Assembly: GCF_010645075.1 (NCBI RefSeq)
Contig: NZ_JAADZV010000001.1
Span: forward strand, 806,001 to 870,000
Direction: 5' to 3'
Length of the DNA stretch: 64,000 nucleotides
From: Flavobacterium limi
Lineage (GTDB): Bacteria; Bacteroidota; Bacteroidia; Flavobacteriales; Flavobacteriaceae
This document shows, in pieces, positions 6,033 to 42,002 of this stretch. Position 1 is the first letter of the stretch, and each line of letters begins with the position of its first letter. The notes beneath the pieces are model-generated. The model saw only the letters and a program-made list of their open reading frames with translations, was not told the origin of the DNA and searched no databases. The translations under genes were made by a program, and so were the position numbers.

Positions 6033-6872
6033 ATGGAAAATAACAAAGTATGGTTCATTACAGGAGCTTCAAAAGGAATTGGATTAGTTTTGGCAAAGAA
6101 ACTATTGGCTCAGGGTCAAAAAGTAGCTGCGACATCAAGAACAAAAGAAGCTTTGATTAAAGCAATTGGAGGTACTTCTCCTAATTTTCTTCCCTTAGAA
6201 ATGGATTTGACCAAAGAAAGTAGTGTAAAAAATGCAATTGAAACTACTGTTAATCAATTTAAGGCCATCGATGTTCTGGTAAATAACGCGGGTTACGGTT
6301 TATTAGGAGCATTGGAGGAATTGACAGATGAAGAATCAAGGAAAAATTATGAGGTAAACGTTTTTGGATTGTTGAATGTAATCAGAAATACGATGCCTTA
6401 CATGCGTGCTAACAAATCAGGGCATATTTTTAATATTTCTTCTGTTGGAGGTTATGTTGGGAATTTTCCCGGTTGGGGGATTTATTGTTCTACCAAATTT
6501 GCAGTTGCGGGCTTAACAGAATCTTTGTCGGCAGAAGTAAAAGAATTTGGGGTGAATGTAACCTTGGTTTACCCGGGATATTTTAGAACTGATTTCTTAA
6601 AAGACAGTTCTTTATTGCTGCCTGAAAATCCAATAGCAGAATATAAAGCTGTCAGAGAATCTGAAAGCGCTCATAAAGACAGTATTAATGAAAATCAGCC
6701 TGGAGATCCTGAAAAATTAGCTGACGCTTTGATTAAAGTTAGTCAGGATCAAAACCCACCGCTTCATTTATTCTTAGGAGAAGATGCTTTTAATATGGCG
6801 AACCAAAAAATAGCAAGTATTCAGGGAGAATTGGAAAAGTGGAAATCAGTTTCAGTTTCAACCGGGTTTTAA
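6033..6872 (+). CDS. Short-chain dehydrogenase/reductase (SDR)
   Basis: A 279-residue cytosolic NAD(P)-dependent oxidoreductase of the classical SDR family. The nucleotide-binding motif TGASKGIG is at 10-17, the NNAG motif at 84-87, the catalytic Ser in FNISSVGG (136/137), and the YxxxK pair is Y151 and K155 in YCSTK. The Arg in TSRTKEA near position 36 suggests NADP preference (inference). The length is normal for the group that acts on small carbonyl or alcohol substrates; the actual substrate is unknown. It follows an AraC-type regulator that may control it. A bidirectional terminator lies between it and the convergent groL gene. Confidence 0.93.
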   Translation: MENNKVWFITGASKGIGLVLAKKLLAQGQKVAATSRTKEALIKAIGGTSPNFLPLEMDLTKESSVKNAIETTVNQFKAIDVLVNNAGYGLLGALEELTDEESRKNYEVNVFGLLNVIRNTMPYMRANKSGHIFNISSVGGYVGNFPGWGIYCSTKFAVAGLTESLSAEVKEFGVNVTLVYPGYFRTDFLKDSSLLLPENPIAEYKAVRESESAHKDSINENQPGDPEKLADALIKVSQDQNPPLHLFLGEDAFNMANQKIASIQGELEKWKSVSVSTGF

Positions 6873-6929
6873 ATTGTCTAGGTTTTCTAATTAGTAAATT
6901 TTTAATCAATAAAGATAAAAGTTTAAAGT

Positions 6930-6964
6930 AAAACGCCACATAGAATTTCTATGTGGCGTTTTAA
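6930..6964. terminator. Bidirectional Rho-independent terminator between SDR gene and groL
   Basis: The near-perfect palindrome AAAACGCCACATAGAA / TTCTATGTGGCGTTTT has A-rich and T-rich flanks on both sides. It lies between two convergent genes and can stop transcription from either direction. Confidence 0.9.
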
Positions 6965-6984
6965 GTTGTAAGAAGTTGAGACGA

Positions 6985-8652
<1,668 letters not shown>

Positions 8653-8701
8653 TTACATTAGTCTTAATTCTTAATACTGAGAACTTAATACGTATTGTTT
8701 T

Positions 8702-8977
8702 TTAGATTATCGCTAAGATATCATCTTCACGCATGATCAAATAATCAGTTCCTTCCAGTTTTAATTCTGTTCCTGCATATTTACCATAAAGGACAGTATC
8801 ACCAACTTTAACGGTCATAGTGTGATCTTTAGATCCGTTTCCTACTGCCACTACGGTTCCTTTTTGTGGTTTTTCTTTGGCAGTGTCCGGAATAAAGATT
8901 CCTGATGCAGTTTTAGTTTCGGCTGCAACTGGCTCGATAAGTACGCGATCTGAAAGCGGTTTAATGTTTAAGGCCAT
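8702..8977 (-). CDS. groS: Co-chaperonin GroES (Hsp10)
   Basis: A 91-residue heptameric lid of the GroEL chamber. It begins [16 protein letters not shown], has the mobile-loop region around [12 protein letters not shown] (contacts GroEL) and the [13 protein letters not shown] and [13 protein letters not shown] segments at the C-terminus. Length is normal. It is the first gene of the groS-groL pair. A terminator for the upstream secG gene lies between secG and groS, so the pair must have its own promoter; I found no clean TAnnTTTG in the 93 bases before the start. Confidence 0.98.
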
Positions 8978-9060
8978 GATTTTATATTATTATAGTTATA
9001 CGTTTTTTAATGCTCTATTAACTTTCAGAAATTATGCCATGCTTATAAAACTGACATTTT

Positions 9061-9098
9061 TTCCTAAAAAAAATGCCAGCTTTGACAGGCTGGCATTT
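9061..9098 (-). terminator. Rho-independent terminator after secG
   Basis: A 10-bp perfect stem (AAATGCCAGC at 9071-9080 pairs with GCTGGCATTT at 9089-9098) with an 8-base loop. Read on the minus strand it is followed by a T run (complement of 9066-9073). It separates the secG transcript from groS-groL. Confidence 0.88.
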
Positions 9099-9118
9099 AT
9101 CTTTTTATTTCAAAATTA

Positions 9119-9460
9119 TTATTTAGCTGCAGGAGTAGCCGGAGCCGGAGTTCCCTGAACAGGAGCAGCTGGTGTTGTTGCTGCAGGTGCTTCAGTTTTT
9201 TCAATAATTTTAGAGTCGGTATCACTTAATGATCCTGTAAAGCTTAAACTTGAAAGCAAAATTAAAGCAATCAGAATAGTAGCTAACGTCCAGGTACTTT
9301 TGTCTAAAAAGTCTGTGGTTTTTTGTACTCCGCCTAACATTTGAGTTCCGCTGATAGTAGATGACAATCCTCCACCTTTAGGGTTCTGAACCATGATTAC
9401 TACGATCAATAGAAAACAAACTATTGTGATTAAAACTAAAAAAATTGAAAATGTGCTCAT
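9119..9460 (-). CDS. secG: Preprotein translocase subunit SecG
   Basis: A 113-residue inner-membrane subunit of the SecYEG translocon. It has two hydrophobic segments (about 3-24 and 58-78) separated by the conserved cytosolic loop MVQNPKGGGLSS, the hallmark of SecG, followed by TQMLGGVQKTTDFLDK. The C-terminal tail is Ala/Pro-rich (about 30 residues), as is usual in Bacteroidota. It starts only 4 bases after the stop of the TPR-protein gene and is last in that minus-strand run before a terminator. Confidence 0.95.
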   Translation of the reverse strand: MSTFSIFLVLITIVCFLLIVVIMVQNPKGGGLSSTISGTQMLGGVQKTTDFLDKSTWTLATILIALILLSSLSFTGSLSDTDSKIIEKTEAPAATTPAAPVQGTPAPATPAAK

Positions 9461-9464
9461 TGCC

Positions 9465-10859
9465 TTAATTATTGTTATTGTTATTTTGTTGTAAAATCTT
9501 TATGTCCGATATGCGGTCTGCAAAGAAAGTAATTTTTTCTGGATATTTCAAAATTAATATTTCATATGCTTGTATTGCTTTTGTATATTTTTTTTGTTCC
9601 AAATATACTCTGGCTAACGTCTCTGTCATTAGGTATGAATTATCTTCTTTGCTGGCGTCGGGTTGTACTGCAGGATTTATTGCTGTTTGTTTTATAGGAG
9701 AAATTTTGGGGTTTGTTTCGATGAATTTATCGATTATTTCTGCTTTTTTCTTTTTCTCTTCGTCAATCATATCATTTTCGACTATGTTTTCAACTTTTGT
9801 TTCTTTACTTACTGCTTTTGTCCGGTCAATTGGCTCAGGTTTTGCTAATTGCAGCCATTCCTGAAAAGAATGTTTCTCATTGAATGAAAAATCCAGTGGC
9901 TTTCCTATTTCCAGATTTTCTTCGGCAGTTTTTACTGTTTGTAGAACCTCAGTTTCTTTTCGTTCTTCAATTTCAGGCACTTCTTCAAAAACAACTGTTG
10001 CGGCTTCCTGTAATGAAGTATATATTGACTCTTCAATTGGTTCAACCCTTACCTCAGGAATTTTATTCTCTTCGGTTTTACCATCTTCTATTTCATCCTC
10101 TACAATTTCATCAAAAAAAGTTCTTGTTGGTTCTTTAATAGGTAATGGTTCAATGACAGGCGTTTCTTCAATAGTTGGACTTACTTTCTGAAAAGAATCT
10201 AATGTCGGTTGATTAGTAATGGAATCAATTGGATTATCTTCAATTTTTAGAGGTTCTTCAAAAGTAGTTTCTGTTACTTCTTTAAAAGAATTTAAAATGG
10301 ATTGCTCAGAAAGTGGCTCGATTGGTTTTTCTTCAGTTTCTGCAGGTTCTTCAAAAGTAACGTTTGTGACTTCTATAAACGAATCTAAAATAGATTGCTC
10401 AGAAACTGACTCAATTGGATTTTCTTCAATTTTTACAATTGCCTCAAAAGTAGTTGCATTTGTAGCTTCCTTAATCGAATCTAAGATAGACTTTTCGATA
10501 GGATCAACCCGAACTTCTGCCTGTTTTTTCTTTTCTTCTGCCAATACAATTTCGCTGTCAAGGACTGTTATGTTTAACAGGTCTCTAAGTTTGCGGTCAT
10601 AATATTCGCCCTGGATAGAAGTAAAAGTTTCAGAAGTAATAAAATCAAACAAAACCGAACGATCTGATGTGTGCGCAGCTGTAACTTTTAAAGCATAATT
10701 ATACTTAAAACTGTTTTGATTGTATAGCCCTTTTAATCGCAATGCACGTGCACTTTGAAAGTAAGGAAATTCGATCAAAACACTACCTAATGCTTCTGTC
10801 TGCTTTTCTGTAATAGCATCAGGTTTGTTAATTAGGTAAGTATAATTAGTTACGTTCAT
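9465..10859 (-). CDS. TPR-type protein with internal 32-residue repeats
   Basis: A 464-residue cytosolic protein. Residues 1-110 form a conserved head (MNVTNYTYLINKP, FPYFQSARALRLKGL). Residues about 118-300 are acidic low-complexity sequence with a repeated unit: SILDSIKEAT (124), SILDSFIEVT (156), SILNSFKEVT (188) and a degenerate TLDSFQKV (219), so the spacing is 32, 32 and about 30. The C-terminal part (about 405-456) has TPR helices (TETLARVYLEQKKYTKAIQA and ILKYPEK). The chain ends in a run of Asn. It sits between lptE and secG, 4 bases from secG. Proteins of this form are common in flavobacteria, but the role is unknown; a scaffold role is inference from the TPRs. Confidence 0.8.
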   Translation of the reverse strand: MNVTNYTYLINKPDAITEKQTEALGSVLIEFPYFQSARALRLKGLYNQNSFKYNYALKVTAAHTSDRSVLFDFITSETFTSIQGEYYDRKLRDLLNITVLDSEIVLAEEKKKQAEVRVDPIEKSILDSIKEATNATTFEAIVKIEENPIESVSEQSILDSFIEVTNVTFEEPAETEEKPIEPLSEQSILNSFKEVTETTFEEPLKIEDNPIDSITNQPTLDSFQKVSPTIEETPVIEPLPIKEPTRTFFDEIVEDEIEDGKTEENKIPEVRVEPIEESIYTSLQEAATVVFEEVPEIEERKETEVLQTVKTAEENLEIGKPLDFSFNEKHSFQEWLQLAKPEPIDRTKAVSKETKVENIVENDMIDEEKKKKAEIIDKFIETNPKISPIKQTAINPAVQPDASKEDNSYLMTETLARVYLEQKKYTKAIQAYEILILKYPEKITFFADRISDIKILQQNNNNNN

Positions 10860-10933
10860 TATTTATTATTTAATTATTTTTTTTATTATAATAGTTTTGT
10901 TTGGTCGATTGTCTTAACAATTGAGCCTAAAAA

Positions 10934-11452
10934 TTACCATTTTGCTAATGACTCATTAAAGATGTCTTGTGTGATTCTTTCAAAAATAGTTTTAAGAGCT
11001 TCATTTAAAACACTTCCAACAAGCTGGGATTGAGCTGGATAATCATGATAAAATTCGAATGTTTTTTCAAAATCGTCAGTTTCTTTCTTTTTATTTGAAA
11101 AACGAACATTTACACGAATTGTTAAACGATTTTGAGAAGCTGCTGCGTCACCATTTGTAGTTACAGCTGTTGCAGTCATTGGAGTAATTCGATAATCTAT
11201 AATTTCACCCTCATAAAGTAAATCGCCATTTGCAGTTACCAAATTTAAATTGGTTTGATTCATAATCAAATCCTGCAAAGTTAATGTAAACTCCCTGTCG
11301 ATTCCCGGCTCAATCAAATCAGCATTATTCTGAAAAAAGTTTACCTGAAATGTGTCGGCATCAATTGGAGTAGCTCCAGTAAAATTATAAATACCACATC
11401 CGCTGAAAGTTGTAGTTATTAACAGAATTAAAATGTACTTTAAGTTTTTCAT
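10934..11452 (-). CDS. lptE: LptE-family LPS-assembly lipoprotein
   Basis: A 172-residue lipoprotein. The signal peptide ends in the lipobox TTFSGC with Cys19 as the lipidated residue. It continues GIYNFTGATPID, the pattern typical of Bacteroidota LptE proteins, and has alternating strands in the mature part (RLTIRVNVRFSN). LptE plugs the LptD barrel at the outer membrane and helps insert lipopolysaccharide. Gene order (sigma-54 activator, lptE, TPR protein, secG) is one seen in other flavobacteria, to my knowledge. The assignment rests on lipobox, length and overall pattern rather than on a catalytic motif. Confidence 0.82.
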   Translation of the reverse strand: MKNLKYILILLITTTFSGCGIYNFTGATPIDADTFQVNFFQNNADLIEPGIDREFTLTLQDLIMNQTNLNLVTANGDLLYEGEIIDYRITPMTATAVTTNGDAAASQNRLTIRVNVRFSNKKKETDDFEKTFEFYHDYPAQSQLVGSVLNEALKTIFERITQDIFNESLAKW

Positions 11453-11488
11453 TTTTAAATTTAAAAATTGTCACAGGTATAATTTTGA

Positions 11489-11496
11489 CAAAGATA
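11489..11496 (-). promoter_or_regulatory. -7 promoter element (TATCTTTG) for lptE
   Basis: On the minus strand TATCTTTG matches TAnnTTTG exactly and lies 36 bases upstream of the lptE ATG, in the gap after the sigma-54 activator gene. A TTG at -33 is not evident, so confidence is moderate. Confidence 0.45.
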
Positions 11497-11524
11497 TTTA
11501 TTTTATGTCGTAAGTTTTTGTAAA

Positions 11525-12784
11525 CTATAAATCGAATTGTTTGATTTTTCGGTACAAAGTTCTTTCTGAAATGCCTAATTCATCAGCAGCAGCTTTACGT
11601 TTTCCTTTGTTTTTTTCTAATGATTTTTTGATCATTTCGATTTCTTTTTGTTCTAAACGTAAAATCTCCTCTTCTTCAATCGTTTCAGCATCCAGATAAT
11701 TATTGTCATCTTGTAGATGGTAATTATCTTCATGGGTTGTGGGTGTCATTACTGCAGTTCCTGGCTGTTCTTCAAAATCGATTTCGCTGTCATTTACTTG
11801 TGAACCGTATATTTTCTGAATTAAATTTGGATTAATGTCCTGCACTTTTGATGAACCATTTTTCATCAGTTCCAAAGTGAGTTTTTTCAAATCATTCAGG
11901 TCGCTTTTCATATCAAAAAGCACTTTATATAATATGTCTCTTTCGGTACTGAAATCACTTTCTTTTTTGCTGTCGCTGATTACAGAAGGCAGATTGCTTC
12001 CTTCGGCAGGCAAATACGATTGTAAAGTTGCTAATGAAATATCCCGGTTAGTCTCCAATACGGAAATTTGTTCTGCCACATTTCGTAATTGACGAATATT
12101 ACCGCTCCATCTGAATTTTTGTAAAAGCTGCACCGCATTATCATCCAGTTTCAATGGGGGCATTTTGTATTTATGCGCAAAATCAGCTACAAACTTCCGG
12201 AACAACAAATGAATGTCATCGTTTCTTTCACGTAAAGGCGGCAAAGTGATTTCGACTGTGCTTAAACGATAATACAAATCTTCACGGAATTTCCCTTTTT
12301 CAATTGCATTAAATAAATTGACATTCGTTGCAGCGACAATTCTCACATTGGTTTTCTGAACCTGTGAAGAACCTACTTTTATAAATTCTCCATTTTCAAG
12401 TACACGCAGCAAACGAACCTGTGTTGTTAAAGGTAATTCTCCAACTTCGTCCAGAAAAATAGTTCCTCCGTCAGCCACTTCAAAATAACCTTCACGTGTA
12501 TTTGTTGCGCCGGTAAAAGCTCCTTTTTCGTGTCCGAAAAGTTCACTATCAATTGTTCCTTCCGGAATCGCTCCACAGTTTACTGCAATATATTTTCCGT
12601 GCTTTCTGTGTGAAAGCGAATGTATAATCCTTGGAATATTTTCTTTACCAACACCACTTTCCCCGGTTACCATAACCGAAATATCAGTCGGAGCCACCTG
12701 AATTGACTTTTCTATCGCACGGTTTAATTTTGGGTCATTCCCAATAATTTCAAATCGTTGTTTTATTGCCTGAACTGATTCCAT
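11525..12784 (-). CDS. Sigma-54-dependent transcriptional activator
   Basis: A 419-residue bacterial enhancer-binding protein without a receiver domain. The AAA+ core (about 10-240) has Walker A GESGVGKE (41-48), the sigma-54-contacting GAFTGA (88-93), Walker B GTIFLDEVGEL (107-117) and an arginine-finger region around FREDLYYRLS. After a linker with predicted disorder, the C-terminus is a Fis-type helix-turn-helix (KRKAAADELGISERTLYRKI). It drives RNA polymerase with RpoN. The lack of a sensory domain means activity is set by abundance or a partner (inference). It is 141 bases downstream of miaB and 72 upstream of lptE. Confidence 0.95.
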   Translation of the reverse strand: MESVQAIKQRFEIIGNDPKLNRAIEKSIQVAPTDISVMVTGESGVGKENIPRIIHSLSHRKHGKYIAVNCGAIPEGTIDSELFGHEKGAFTGATNTREGYFEVADGGTIFLDEVGELPLTTQVRLLRVLENGEFIKVGSSQVQKTNVRIVAATNVNLFNAIEKGKFREDLYYRLSTVEITLPPLRERNDDIHLLFRKFVADFAHKYKMPPLKLDDNAVQLLQKFRWSGNIRQLRNVAEQISVLETNRDISLATLQSYLPAEGSNLPSVISDSKKESDFSTERDILYKVLFDMKSDLNDLKKLTLELMKNGSSKVQDINPNLIQKIYGSQVNDSEIDFEEQPGTAVMTPTTHEDNYHLQDDNNYLDAETIEEEEILRLEQKEIEMIKKSLEKNKGKRKAAADELGISERTLYRKIKQFDL

Positions 12785-12925
12785 TTGTATTTTGTTTCAA
12801 GTTGTTATTTGTTTAAGGTTTCAGGTCTGAACTTGAACTTTAAACTTATTGGCTTGTATTTTTTTGTTTCTGATTTGAAGTTACAGAAATAACCTGAAAC
12901 TTAAAACCTGAAGATTCAAACAATT

Positions 12926-14371
12926 TTAATTCATTTCACTCAACCCAACAGCTTCGCCTTTTAAGGTTCCGCTTGTACAGCTTGTAATTTTTACATTCAC
13001 AAAATCCCCAATTTTATAATTCTCTTTAGGGAAAACCACTGTAATACTCTGAGAATTTCTTCCGGAGAATTCTTCTTTTGATTTTTTAGAAACTTTCTCC
13101 ACTAAAACTTCAACGGTTTTGCTCACAAATTCCTCGCTTCTAAACCAGGCATGTTTTTGTTGTAAATCAACAATTTCCTGTAATCTTCGGGCTTTAGTTT
13201 CTTCTTCAACATCATCTTTCATTTTTCTTCCCGCCAGAGTTCCCGGGCGTTCAGAATACGAATACATATAACCGAAATTATATTTTACATATTCCATTAA
13301 ACTCATAGTATCCTGATGATCTTGTTCAGTTTCTGTTGGGAAGCCGGCAATCATATCCTGCGAAATCGAAGCATCCGGAACAATTGTTCTAATTTTATCA
13401 ATCAAAGTCATGTATTCTTCACGGGAATGCAAACGATTCATTTCTTTTAAAATTCTGTTGCTTCCGGACTGAACCGGTAAATGAATGTGTTTACAAATGT
13501 TTGGATATTTTGCCATAACATGCAAAATACTTTCATGCATATCCTGCGGATTAGAAGTGGAAAAACGAATGCGCATTTTTGGAAAACCAACCGCAACCAT
13601 TTCAAGCAATTGATCAAAATCGACAGCAGTTGCTTTCTGCATTTCAGAAGCATTTACGAAATCTTTTTTCAAACCTCCGCCGTACCACAGATAACTGTCT
13701 ACGTTTTGTCCAAGAAGTGTAATTTCTTTAAAACCTTTATTCCACAAATCCTGAATTTCAGCCATAATACTTTGCGGTTCACGGCTTCGCTCACGTCCGC
13801 GCGTAAACGGCACAACGCAAAATGTGCACATATTGTCACATCCTCGCGTAATCGAAACCAAAGCTGTGATTCCATTACTCATCAAACGAACTGGCGAAAT
13901 ATCTCCGTAGGTTTCTTCTTTTGATAAAATTACATTAATGGCGTCGCGGCCTTCTTCAACTTCCGCTAACAAATTCGGAAGATCTTTATAAGCATCCGGA
14001 CCAACGACAAGATCAACGATTTTTTCTTCTTCCAGAAACTGGCTTTTTAAACGTTCTGCCATACAGCCTAAAACGCCCACTTTCATTTTCGGGTTGGTAC
14101 GTTTCACGGCGTTGTATTTTTCAAGACGTTTACGTATGGTTTGCTCGGCTTTGTCACGAATTGAGCAGGTATTAACCAAAACCAAATCAGCTTCTTCTAA
14201 AACGGAAGTTGTGTTATATCCGCCATCAGACAAAATGGAAGCTACGACCTCGCTGTCCGAAAAATTCATCGCACAGCCGTAACTTTCTATAAATAGTTTT
14301 TTAGTATTCTCAGGTTTATTTTTCAAAACAAGACTTTCGCCCTGCTTGCTTTCTTCAATAATCTTTTCCAT
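12926..14371 (-). CDS. miaB: tRNA-2-methylthio-N6-dimethylallyladenosine synthase MiaB
   Basis: A 481-residue radical-SAM methylthiotransferase that modifies A37 of tRNAs reading UNN codons. The N-terminal domain carries the three Cys for the auxiliary iron-sulfur cluster: C33 (ESYGCAMN), C69 (NTCSIRDKAE) and C103 (GCMAERLK). The radical-SAM CxxxCxxC is C178, C182 and C185 (GCDNMCTFC). A TRAM domain closes the C-terminus (about 415-478). The length is normal for Bacteroidota MiaB, which carry an extra N-terminal tail. A well-formed -33/-7 promoter lies just upstream. Confidence 0.97.
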   Translation of the reverse strand: MEKIIEESKQGESLVLKNKPENTKKLFIESYGCAMNFSDSEVVASILSDGGYNTTSVLEEADLVLVNTCSIRDKAEQTIRKRLEKYNAVKRTNPKMKVGVLGCMAERLKSQFLEEEKIVDLVVGPDAYKDLPNLLAEVEEGRDAINVILSKEETYGDISPVRLMSNGITALVSITRGCDNMCTFCVVPFTRGRERSREPQSIMAEIQDLWNKGFKEITLLGQNVDSYLWYGGGLKKDFVNASEMQKATAVDFDQLLEMVAVGFPKMRIRFSTSNPQDMHESILHVMAKYPNICKHIHLPVQSGSNRILKEMNRLHSREEYMTLIDKIRTIVPDASISQDMIAGFPTETEQDHQDTMSLMEYVKYNFGYMYSYSERPGTLAGRKMKDDVEEETKARRLQEIVDLQQKHAWFRSEEFVSKTVEVLVEKVSKKSKEEFSGRNSQSITVVFPKENYKIGDFVNVKITSCTSGTLKGEAVGLSEMN

Positions 14372-14388: not shown

Positions 14389-14420
14389 CAAAGATAGCGC
14401 AAATATCATGAATATGACAA
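14389..14420 (-). promoter_or_regulatory. -33/-7 promoter of miaB
   Basis: On the minus strand TTG (complement of 14418-14420) and TATCTTTG (complement of 14389-14396) are 21 bases apart, both perfect matches to the Bacteroidota consensus. The ATG at 14371 lies 17 bases beyond the -7 box. Confidence 0.75.
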
Positions 14421-14516
14421 GATGTCAGATAAAGAATTAACAATGTTTTCAGAATCGTTTGGTAACATTTTTTTGCAAATACATTTTACATTTTACAAAT
14501 TGTATTTTACTTATTA

Positions 14517-14660
14517 GGGAGCTATTCCGGCTCTCCGTTTCAAGTCCTCATTAAAAAAGCAAAGTTTCTAATGTTTAAAAAGAGCTCCGCTGGTCGCTTT
14601 TTTAAAACAGGAAACTTTTGCTTTTTTAACTCCTGGCTTTTCACTTCAATCCGGACTAGG
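14517..14660. repeat. Structured intergenic repeat, copy 1
   Basis: About 144 bases with a sequence relative at 41812-42002. Conserved flanks are GGGAGCTATTCCGGCT, TCCGTTTCAAGTCCTCA and, at the end, GGCTTTTCACTTCAA and GACTAGG. Between them lies a long two-part hairpin: outer stem 14553-14568 with 14611-14627, inner stem 14573-14582 with 14597-14608. In the second copy the arms differ in sequence but still pair. It fills most of the 474-base miaB/topA divergent gap and contains no ORF. It could be a structured RNA or a small mobile repeat. Confidence 0.75.
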
Positions 14661-14799
14661 AACTTTAGTGTTATAAAGAACATTTCGTGGCTATGAACCT
14701 TTAAAAATTATACCTATATATATAATTAATCTGTTTACAGATAAATCTTCAATTTTTAGAATCATAATCCCAAAATACTTCAAAAATGAATTATCAGGG

Positions 14800-14828
14800 T
14801 TGATATTTAAAAAAAACTTCTACTTTTG
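14800..14828 (+). promoter_or_regulatory. -33/-7 promoter of topA
   Basis: TTG at 14800-14802 and TACTTTTG at 14821-14828 with an 18-base spacer, both perfect consensus matches. The topA ATG begins 17 bases after the -7 box. Confidence 0.78.
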
Positions 14829-14845: not shown

Positions 14846-17362
14846 ATGGCAAAGAATTTAGTAATAGTGGAGTCACCTGCAAAGGCGAAAACAATCGAGA
14901 AATTTCTCGGGAACGATTTTCAGGTGGAGTCAAGTTATGGACACATAGCCGACTTACCTTCCAAGGAAATAGGAGTAGATGTAGAAAATGGGTTTAAACC
15001 TAAATACGAAGTTTCTTCTGATAAAAAAGCCTTGGTTAGCAAGCTTAAAACACTATCTAAAAATGCCGAAACGGTTTGGTTAGCGAGCGATGAGGACCGC
15101 GAGGGGGAGGCTATTTCATGGCACTTGGCGGAAGAATTAAAACTGGATACCAAAAAAACCAAAAGAATCGTTTTTCACGAGATTACCAAAAGCGCGATTC
15201 TTAAAGCAATAGATAATCCAAGAGAAATTGATTATAATTTAGTAAATGCACAACAGGCACGTCGTGTTCTGGATCGTTTAGTGGGTTATGAATTATCTCC
15301 GGTTCTATGGAGAAAAATTAAAGGAGGGCTTTCTGCCGGACGTGTCCAATCTGTTTCTGTTCGTTTAATTGTAGAAAGAGAACGCGAAATCCAAACCTTT
15401 AATGCAGTTGCAACTTATTCTGTTGTTGCAGAATTCGTAAATGAAGCAGGAAAAGCTTTTAAAGCAAAACTGCCAAAAAATTTCAACACTAAAAAAGAAG
15501 CCGAAGATTTTTTAAATCAAAATATCGGTTCTATATATAAGGTAGCAGATTTAGAAACTAAGCCTACCAAAAAATCACCGACAGCACCATTTACAACTTC
15601 TACGCTTCAGCAGGAAGCAGCAAGAAAATTGTATTTGCCGGTTGGTATCACCATGCAGCTGGCACAGCGTTTATACGAAGCGGGACTTATTACTTATATG
15701 AGAACGGACTCGGTAAATCTTTCAAAAGAAGCAATGGATGCTGCTGAAGCTGAAATCATAAAGTCTTATGGAAAAGAATTCTCTAAACCGAGAATTTTTG
15801 CCAATAAAAATAAAGGTGCTCAGGAAGCACACGAAGCTATTCGCCCTACTGATATGTCTCGTCATTCAGTAAATATTGATCGTGATCAGGCTCGTTTATA
15901 TGATTTGATCTGGAAAAGAACTTTAGCTTCGCAAATGAGTGATGCACAGCTTGAAAGAACAAATGTGAAAATAGAGGCCGATAATCATAGTGAAATCTTT
16001 ACAGCTTCAGGAGAAGTATTGCTTTTTGAAGGTTTCTTGAAGGTTTATTTAGAAGGTCACGATGACGATGAAGAAGAACAGGAAGGAATGTTACCTGCAT
16101 TAAAAGTAAATGAAAAGTTAGCTAATAATTACATCACGGCAACTGAAAGATATTCAAGACCGCCAGCAAGGTATACAGAAGCTTCTTTGGTGAAAAAATT
16201 AGAAGAATTAGGAATCGGACGTCCGTCTACGTATGCACCGACTATTTCTACTATCATCAATAGAAATTATGTAGAAAAAGGAACTCTTGAAGGGCAAGAA
16301 CGTAACTATACACAACTTACTTTGCAAAATAGCAAAGTTGGAGAAAAATTGCTAAAAGAAAACACAGGTTCAGATAAAGGGAAACTAGTTCCAACAGATA
16401 TAGGGACCATTGTTACCGATTTCTTAGTGAAAAATTTCGGAAATATTCTGGACTATAATTTCACTGCAAAAGTAGAGCAGGATTTTGATGAAATTGCTGA
16501 AGGAAATATTGATTGGGCAACCATGATGCAGGAATTCTATGATAAGTTTCATCCAAATGTTAAAGATGTTGAGGCAAATGCAGAAAGAGAAAGCGGTGAA
16601 AGAATTCTTGGAAAAGATGCAGATGGAAGGCAAGTGTCTGTTCGTTTAGGGAAGTTTGGTCCTATGGCTCAAATAGGAGAAGCTGACGATGAAGATAAAA
16701 AATTTGCCAGTTTAATGGCAGATCAAAATATAGGGAATATTACTTTAGAAGATGCTTTGAATCTTTTCTTACTTCCTAAAAACTTAGGAGAATATAAAGG
16801 AGAAGAAGTTGAAGTGAGTAATGGACGTTACGGGCCTTATGTACGTCATGGAAGTGTTTTTATTTCTCTTCCAAGAGGAGAAGATCCACTTGCGGTTACA
16901 AAAGAAAGGGCTCAGGAGCTAATTGATGAAAAAGCTCTTGCTGATGCGCCAATTGCAGTTTACAAAGGTGAAGCAGTTCAGAAAGGTGTAGGGCGCTTTG
17001 GTCCGTTTATAAAATGGAATGGTCTTTTTGTGAATGTCAGTAAAAAATACAATTTTGATAATTTATCTCAGGCTGACGTTGAAGAGCTGATAGAAGATAA
17101 ATTACAAAAAAACATTGATAAGGTTCTTCATAATTGGGAAGAAGAAGGAATTGTTGTTGAAAAAGCAAGATGGGGACGCTCAGTAATTTTAAAAGGTAAA
17201 ATCAAAATTGAATTGAGTAAAGATGTTGATGCGACAAAATTGACGTTGGCTCAGGTTCAGGAAATGATCGCGGCTAAAACGCCTGCAAAGAAAACACCTG
17301 TAAAAAAAGCAACAACCGCAAAAAAAGCACCAGCAAAAAAAACAGCTGCTAAAAAGAAATAA
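14846..17362 (+). CDS. topA: DNA topoisomerase I (type IA)
   Basis: An 838-residue enzyme that relaxes negative supercoils by single-strand passage. The N-terminal TOPRIM domain begins MAKNLVIVESPAKAKTIEKF and has the metal-binding SDEDREGEAISWH (81-93). The catalytic Tyr is Y284 in LITYMRTDSVNLS. In place of Cys4 zinc fingers the C-terminal third has repeated TopA C-terminal motifs (GRYGPYVRHG, GRFGPFIKW, ARWGRSVILKG). The chain ends in a Lys/Ala-rich tail (AKKTPAKK repeats), as is usual in Bacteroidota. The next gene starts 3 bases after the stop. Confidence 0.98.
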   Translation: MAKNLVIVESPAKAKTIEKFLGNDFQVESSYGHIADLPSKEIGVDVENGFKPKYEVSSDKKALVSKLKTLSKNAETVWLASDEDREGEAISWHLAEELKLDTKKTKRIVFHEITKSAILKAIDNPREIDYNLVNAQQARRVLDRLVGYELSPVLWRKIKGGLSAGRVQSVSVRLIVEREREIQTFNAVATYSVVAEFVNEAGKAFKAKLPKNFNTKKEAEDFLNQNIGSIYKVADLETKPTKKSPTAPFTTSTLQQEAARKLYLPVGITMQLAQRLYEAGLITYMRTDSVNLSKEAMDAAEAEIIKSYGKEFSKPRIFANKNKGAQEAHEAIRPTDMSRHSVNIDRDQARLYDLIWKRTLASQMSDAQLERTNVKIEADNHSEIFTASGEVLLFEGFLKVYLEGHDDDEEEQEGMLPALKVNEKLANNYITATERYSRPPARYTEASLVKKLEELGIGRPSTYAPTISTIINRNYVEKGTLEGQERNYTQLTLQNSKVGEKLLKENTGSDKGKLVPTDIGTIVTDFLVKNFGNILDYNFTAKVEQDFDEIAEGNIDWATMMQEFYDKFHPNVKDVEANAERESGERILGKDADGRQVSVRLGKFGPMAQIGEADDEDKKFASLMADQNIGNITLEDALNLFLLPKNLGEYKGEEVEVSNGRYGPYVRHGSVFISLPRGEDPLAVTKERAQELIDEKALADAPIAVYKGEAVQKGVGRFGPFIKWNGLFVNVSKKYNFDNLSQADVEELIEDKLQKNIDKVLHNWEEEGIVVEKARWGRSVILKGKIKIELSKDVDATKLTLAQVQEMIAAKTPAKKTPVKKATTAKKAPAKKTAAKKK

Positions 17363-41811: not shown

Positions 41812-42002
41812 GGGAGCTATTTCCAGCTTTCCGTTTCAAGTCCTCACAAAAGAGGCTGTATTTCTAATGTTGCAAAAAGAGCTTCTTCCAGTCGTTTTTT
41901 TTCAACAAGAAATACGGCCTTTTTGCTCCGGGCTTTTCACTTCAAATGAAATTCACTGAACTCCGAATAAAATAAAATTATAGTGAAGTAATCTGGGCTA
42001 GG
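41812..42002. repeat. Structured intergenic repeat, copy 2
   Basis: A relative of the element at 14517-14660, 10 bases after the ABC-F stop. Shared flanks are GGGAGCTATTTCCAGCT, TCCGTTTCAAGTCCTCA, then GGGCTTTTCACTTCAA and GGGCTAGG. Hairpin: outer stem 41847-41865 with 41908-41925, inner stem 41869-41879 with 41894-41906. The arms differ from copy 1 in sequence but pair in the same way. An extra 50-base insert near the 3' end holds a small hairpin (TTCACT 41952-41957 with AGTGAA 41982-41987). No ORF. Confidence 0.75.

Follow-up and report, generated by a model that had tools for sequence, protein, structure and literature searches.

Since 2010 Rfam has listed Flavo-1 as an RNA without an assigned function. 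It was described as an RNA by Weinberg et al. in 2010 (family RF01705; PMC2864571), and a survey ranks it with the most abundant small RNAs of bacteria (PMC9029176). Transcriptomic data for Flavobacterium psychrophilum showed no preferred orientation of Flavo-1 matches relative to transcripts, sense or antisense, and many of the matches were untranscribed (PMC9723704). A long form of this element, for which no description was found in the literature, is present in two copies in the stretch examined here (the window), which covers 64,000 nucleotides (G000:C11:806001–870000) of a 5.4 Mb Flavobacterium genome.

Copy 1 is a palindromic element of 144 bases (14517–14660) inside the gap between the divergent genes miaB (12926–14371, minus strand) and topA (14846–17362, plus strand), which is where the initial annotation had placed it. 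Copy 2 (41812–42002) lies in the gap between two convergent genes and shares 78 % identity with copy 1 by BLAST. The two had been described as having common flanks and layout; they are indeed two copies of one element, but the supposed flanks are the element's own ends, and the sequence outside differs. The remark that the arms differ while pairing is kept was accurate, with AAAGTTTC/GAAACTTT and GTTT/AAAC in copy 1 corresponding to TGTATTTC/GAAATACG, which includes one T.G wobble, and GTTG/CAAC in copy 2. Copy 2 is the longer because it carries an extra module of 46 nt (41946–41991) just inside the outer stem, separating the part equivalent to copy 1 (41812–41945, minus strand) from the outer end TCTGGGCTAGG (41992–42002). 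The same module recurs in L006, in the topA gap of genome G010 (L133) and in F. hibisci (L160). In genomes G015 (C11:157144–157381) and G006, the gap orthologous to that of copy 2 holds a different palindromic repeat, AAAGTTCGCAAAGCTTT...AAAGCTTTGCGAACTTTGTG.

A scan of the window against Rfam at the curated thresholds reported no match. With permissive filters, copy 1 scored 36.8 bits against RF01705, where the gathering score is 42, on the minus strand at 14520–14661 (E 2.5e-6 for the stretch, 3.5e-4 for the window), and it aligned over the whole model, positions 1–76, with an accuracy of 0.99. It falls below the cut-off because it has a terminal hairpin of 89 nt where Rfam has 23. Copy 2 gave no hit even with the limit set at E<=1. 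The suspected link to Flavo-1 was therefore right in that the core is homologous, yet copy 1 is below the Rfam threshold and copy 2 goes unreported, so that by this threshold the long form fails strict membership of RF01705. About 100 ordinary Flavo-1 copies, mostly 76–80 nt long, are above the cut-off in this genome, and their two ends are visibly like those of the long copies. A covariance model built from long copies found 11 of these in the genome and also matched about 50 shorter elements over their full length, nearly all of which Rfam calls Flavo-1.

The complete element in copy 1 is delimited by the R1 covariance model and the RF01705 alignment and reads on the minus strand, which is the Rfam/Flavo-1 strand. 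The Flavo-1 3′ half (14517–14549, minus strand) consists of the outer stem AGC(TATT)CCGGC, the internal loop GGA/GAA and the inner stem AAGTCCTC, as placed by the RF01705 alignment and consensus helices 1–4. The 5′ half, CCTAGTCCGGATTGAAGTGAAAAGCCAGGAG on the minus strand, occupies 14630–14660. Between the two halves stands the long hairpin that is missing from ordinary Flavo-1, with its left arm at 14551–14581 and its right arm at 14599–14629 (repeat search and alignment, helices 5–6) on either side of the conserved apical sequence GAGCTCCGCTGGTCGC (14582–14597), which is GAGCTTCCNNNGGTCGC in the family and corresponds to nearly invariant columns of alignment A1.

The long form thus shares with RF01705 the core UAGCC.cGAUuGaAGcG... 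/ ...GcGGAaAGCggGA, which aligns along its full length on the minus strand, as well as the internal loops and the dispersed intergenic distribution in Bacteroidetes. It differs in being 142–144 nt rather than a compact 76–80 nt or so, in having a hairpin of 89 nt with a conserved tip in place of the short one of 23 nt, and in its foot, which pairs UAGC with GCUA (or UGCC with GGCA) across a one-sided bulge, whereas the 5′ UAGCC and the 3′ GAaaaagu have no pairing partners in the RF01705 alignment. These comparisons show the element to be a long-hairpin variant of the Flavo-1 superfamily.

The predicted fold of copy 1 (−47.7 kcal/mol) was well below that of dinucleotide shuffles (−29; z −5.57), and copy 2 gave a z of −3.94. 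Covariation could not be demonstrated from these two copies alone, which are too few, and an alignment of 62 long copies was needed. This had 44 predicted pairs, 36 of which had changed on both sides. When a fixed structure was imposed on the same copies, 91.7 % of pair cells held standard pairs, compared with 74.3 % after shuffling and 41–56 % when the structure was slid, and both-sided changes were seen at 37 of 46 pairs, a number reached by none of 500 shuffles. There were 493 double-changed cells against 120 in the shuffled alignments, with all slid controls far lower, and the covariation score was 0.481 against 0.155; again 0/500 shuffles reached the observed values. The fixed structure includes one pair (columns 15 and 137) that never pairs and lowers the result slightly. 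Helices 1, 2 and 4 were 98–99 % paired, and the foot pairs AGC with GCU, or UGCC with GGCA in another subgroup, across the one-sided bulge. Sequence conservation extends to the tip GAGCTTCCNNNGGTCGC, which has A and T runs on either side, and to the purine-rich internal loops, and the mismatches that form the internal loops, the outer-stem bulge and the unpaired tip are kept in nearly all copies. Covariation shows that the Flavo-1 strand folds into an outer stem, interrupted by purine-rich internal loops, and beyond it a long hairpin that is rich in A/T and has an invariant tip.

The proposal of selection for structure made in the initial annotation is strongly supported by this covariation, which far exceeds chance, and further copies of the element were found outside the window. 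Within it, a covariance model search matched exactly copy 1 (138.3 bits, over model positions 1–145) and copy 2 (96.7 bits, at 41812–41955 on the minus strand); the training set of this model, R1, included copy 1 and not copy 2.

In the first set of long copies, those in co-directional gaps favoured one orientation by 23 to 9. Many copies in this set begin 0–20 nt past a stop codon, and some TAG stops overlap the first bases of the element. The same was seen among 60 newly fetched copies, a sample independent of the set that gave the hypothesis, where a stop codon lay <=20 nt from the AGC end in 21 copies and from the other end in two. The copies behind stop codons are spread over many unrelated genes. 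Like copy 1, 13 others among 53 long copies lie in divergent gaps. Short Flavo-1 copies lack the strong post-stop-codon bias of the long form and show no orientation bias (8 sense versus 8 antisense).

The miaB–topA gap was examined in congeneric genomes, and the element was present in 31 of 77, in the same orientation in all but one. Its distance to topA is often constant, at 184–187 bp in one group and 115–116 in another. On the topA tree, the pattern of presence needs 11 changes, compared with 22 when shuffled, and in the tree of the element 24 of 27 copies from this gap fall in one clade (support 96/86); they therefore most likely descend from one ancestral copy. Among 13 copies at the topA site, double-sided changes were found at 12 of 45 pairs, while only 15 of 585 cells were unpaired, and these copies show compensatory evolution in place. 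The adk site has the same pattern on a small scale. Settled copies are thus inherited for long periods with their fold maintained, as shown at topA–miaB.

There are also signs of movement, loss and exchange. When copy 1 was used as a BLAST query, related long copies turned up in 20 of 60 relatives, nearly all of them congeneric, and the covariance model of long copies extends the range of the long form to further families within the order. Flavo-1 copy number ranges from 0 to 79 among 15 Flavobacterium genomes (E<=1e-12); genome G002 is one that lacks Flavo-1. The topA clade takes in two copies from other places (L006 and L088), the first of them from genome G015, which has no copy in its topA gap, and three copies that do occupy the topA gap (L163/L167 and L212) belong to other clades. 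In F. hungaricum (L175, 2091–2248) the element has been inverted where it stands, and a hairpin, TCCCGAGGCTTCGGGA, takes the place of its tip CAACGG. G015 and G006 lack the element in their orthologous gaps. A clean empty site was sought in G015:C11 and G006:C14 for each of the 11 copies in 400 kb, but neither such a site nor a target duplication was recovered, as the intergenic DNA (about 83 % identity) has changed too far to be aligned. No matching copy was found in collections of plasmids and phages.

At one spot in the miaB–topA gap, one strand of the stem has been swapped for the palindrome TCCCGATAGCTATCGGGA in several species. The strand GAGGACTTG is replaced by the palindrome TCCCGATAGCTATCGGGATG in L167, L178, L185, L192, L198 and L199, with variants in L214 and L223, apparently several times independently. 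The exact palindrome TCCCGATAGCTATCGGGATG occurs once in the genome containing the window.

Taken together, we consider that the element is most likely a dispersed DNA repeat of the Flavo-1 class which folds in single-stranded form and is acted on by a putative protein, and give this reading a probability of roughly 55 %. The element would act as DNA. In a single-stranded form, either on the lagging strand or extruded, the folded strand would be recognised by a protein encoded by the host or by the element, and this protein could move or exchange copies. New copies would prefer sites immediately after stop codons and a single orientation; this position is observed, and targeting would account for it. 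Neighbouring genes probably tolerate the element, which at copy 1 lies outside both predicted transcripts. The variable copy number, presence or absence at orthologous gaps, clade members found off site and the inversion all point to a DNA repeat. Several things stand against it. The long, compensated retention at one site exceeds what a purely selfish insert needs, placement at 3′ ends also fits a role in mRNA, and no clean empty site, partner transposase or recombinase, or plasmid or phage copy was found.

The strongest competitor, though an unlikely one in our estimate, is a structured RNA that is transcribed by read-through or as the 3′ UTR of the preceding gene and whose fold serves as a protein-binding site, shields the 3′ end or has a regulatory role; the class of sRNA gene that Rfam gives Flavo-1 would then be right. 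Such an RNA would explain the strong covariation, the conserved loop sequences and the placement of long copies behind stop codons in one orientation. The wobbles lean the same way, as in a strand-neutral set of pairs the Flavo-1 strand had 50 G.U against 26 A.C, making it probably the folded one. However, the mRNA of the upstream gene carries the complement of the strand favoured by the wobbles and by the purine-rich loops, so a role in the 3′ UTR fits less well. Wobbles also make up only about 3 % of the pairs in the strand-neutral set, which in our judgement seems low for an RNA under selection.

Promoter signals were sought using only the housekeeping −7 box of Flavobacterium, TAnnTTTG. 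This was found at the two ends of the element in 4/53 and 5/53 copies, about the shuffled level (at most 5 against 2.8), whereas at the starts of open reading frames, used as a control, it was present in 49/231 against 8.6, an enrichment of nearly six-fold. Judged by this box, the element shows no sign of the upstream promoter of its own that is expected for a small RNA gene. In the window, the box of topA (14821–14828, plus strand) and that of miaB (14389–14396, minus strand) are each 25 nt before the ATG and sit between copy 1 and the gene, with both promoters directed away from the element. Copy 1 is therefore outside both predicted transcripts, and in divergent gaps generally the predicted transcripts leave the element out. 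Upstream of the miaB box, at 14408–14441, is a strongly conserved and partly palindromic motif, TGACAAGATGTCAG...GAATTAACA, kept in the same gap of nearly all species compared, which may be the site of a regulator.

The structured RNA implied by the initial annotation is thus not supported by the lines of evidence examined here. The lack of promoter enrichment, the small share of wobbles, the 8:8 orientation of short copies and the indifferent orientation and frequent lack of transcription of Flavo-1 in F. psychrophilum (PMC9723704) lead us to favour DNA over RNA.

We regard a terminator or insulator as distinctly improbable. In that case an A/T-rich palindrome would end transcription from one or both sides and be kept behind genes for that purpose, consistent with its placement just past stop codons, the A-tract and T-tract around the apical hairpin, and the position of copy 2 between convergent genes. 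Termination is not needed in the divergent gaps that hold copy 1 and 13 more of the 53 long copies, the structure as a whole is not followed by a U-run, and A–U pairs make up most of the apical stem; the divergent placement and weak stem make a T-run terminator a poor reading. Conservation also covers the outer Flavo-1 part and the internal loops, for which a terminator has no use. Similarly improbable is mutational upkeep of a neutral palindrome, whose arms would be matched by template-switch correction during replication to give compensatory changes without selection, since, while the almost purely Watson–Crick pairing and the recurrent swap of a strand for TCCCGATAGCTATCGGGA, resembling an event at the template level, would suit it, correction would erase the internal loops, outer-stem bulge and unpaired tip that persist in nearly all copies, and the loop bases are conserved in sequence too.

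Returning to the dispersed DNA repeat, the long form shows the Flavo-1 family to be wider than its Rfam model, with an additional outer stem and a hairpin whose tip is invariant, and its placement and descent speak for a DNA repeat rather than a small RNA. This is a genuine element that is strongly structured, dispersed and long-lived, and its features resemble those of a folded DNA repeat settling behind genes more than those of a dedicated small RNA. If it is a DNA repeat, many automatic 'sRNA' annotations in Bacteroidota would be wrong, and the miaB–topA and adk sites would be natural test loci.

Among known systems, REP sequences and their RAYT (TnpA-REP) partners are similar in comprising dispersed intergenic palindromes of high copy number with imperfect stems, and RAYT subclass 2.6 of Bacteroidetes has 'atypical secondary structures' (PMC6006769). 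The long element differs in being much longer, in that no GTAG-type foot was identified and in that the RAYT genes of the host lack Flavo-1 ends. The genome has three Y1_Tnp/RAYT genes; none has Flavo-1 ends beside it and two adjoin other palindromes, and RAYT was rejected as the partner on these grounds. No transposase or recombinase could be linked to the element. RAYT-type genes at L046 (1334–1376/1995–2037) and L047 (1214–1294/1941–1969) stand between palindromes of other families, and the sequences GCTAGCGCGAGCG...CGCTCGTG and CCTACAAGGTTTTGAAAACCTTGCAGG at these loci are probably the cognate REPs of those genes.

The attC sites of integrons are likewise imperfect palindromes with a strand bias and a fixed orientation behind stop codons. 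The element differs from them in having neither RYYYAAC/GTTRRRY ends nor an array and in following housekeeping genes such as adk, and this reading was rejected on the end motifs, the consensus ends of the long form being AGGAGCTA and GGGCTAGG. The genome's own attC-like repeats (G000:C27) are unrelated to it in sequence. They belong to an integron-like cassette array (C27:112275–119200; L268, about 6275–13200) with a tyrosine recombinase of 310 aa that matches the integron-integrase model TIGR02249 in two pieces, scoring 102.9 and 96.1 bits where the cut-off is 265. After the recombinase come short open reading frames, each with an imperfect palindrome of 125–165 bp and GCTAACA...GTTAGC-like ends. 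The same contig has repeats of about 150–240 bp at 88.7k, 94.6k and 112.0k, in which a Flavo-1-like core lies within the flanks GCCCGCATGAGGGATAGC...GCGGGGCATGCC, and one of these is just upstream of the tyrosine recombinase.

Bacterial MITEs resemble the element in being short, non-coding, present in high copy number and variable between relatives; the element differs in having no demonstrated pair of insertion-sequence terminal inverted repeats or target duplication. A more specific proposal, which we put forward only tentatively and consider doubtful at present, is that short and long Flavo-1 are the single-stranded DNA substrate of a putative Bacteroidota recombinase or transposase, with the long form inserted at stop codons in a fixed orientation. 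They would then be not RNA genes but a new class of structure-recognised mobile repeat, to be set beside REP/RAYT and attC/integron.
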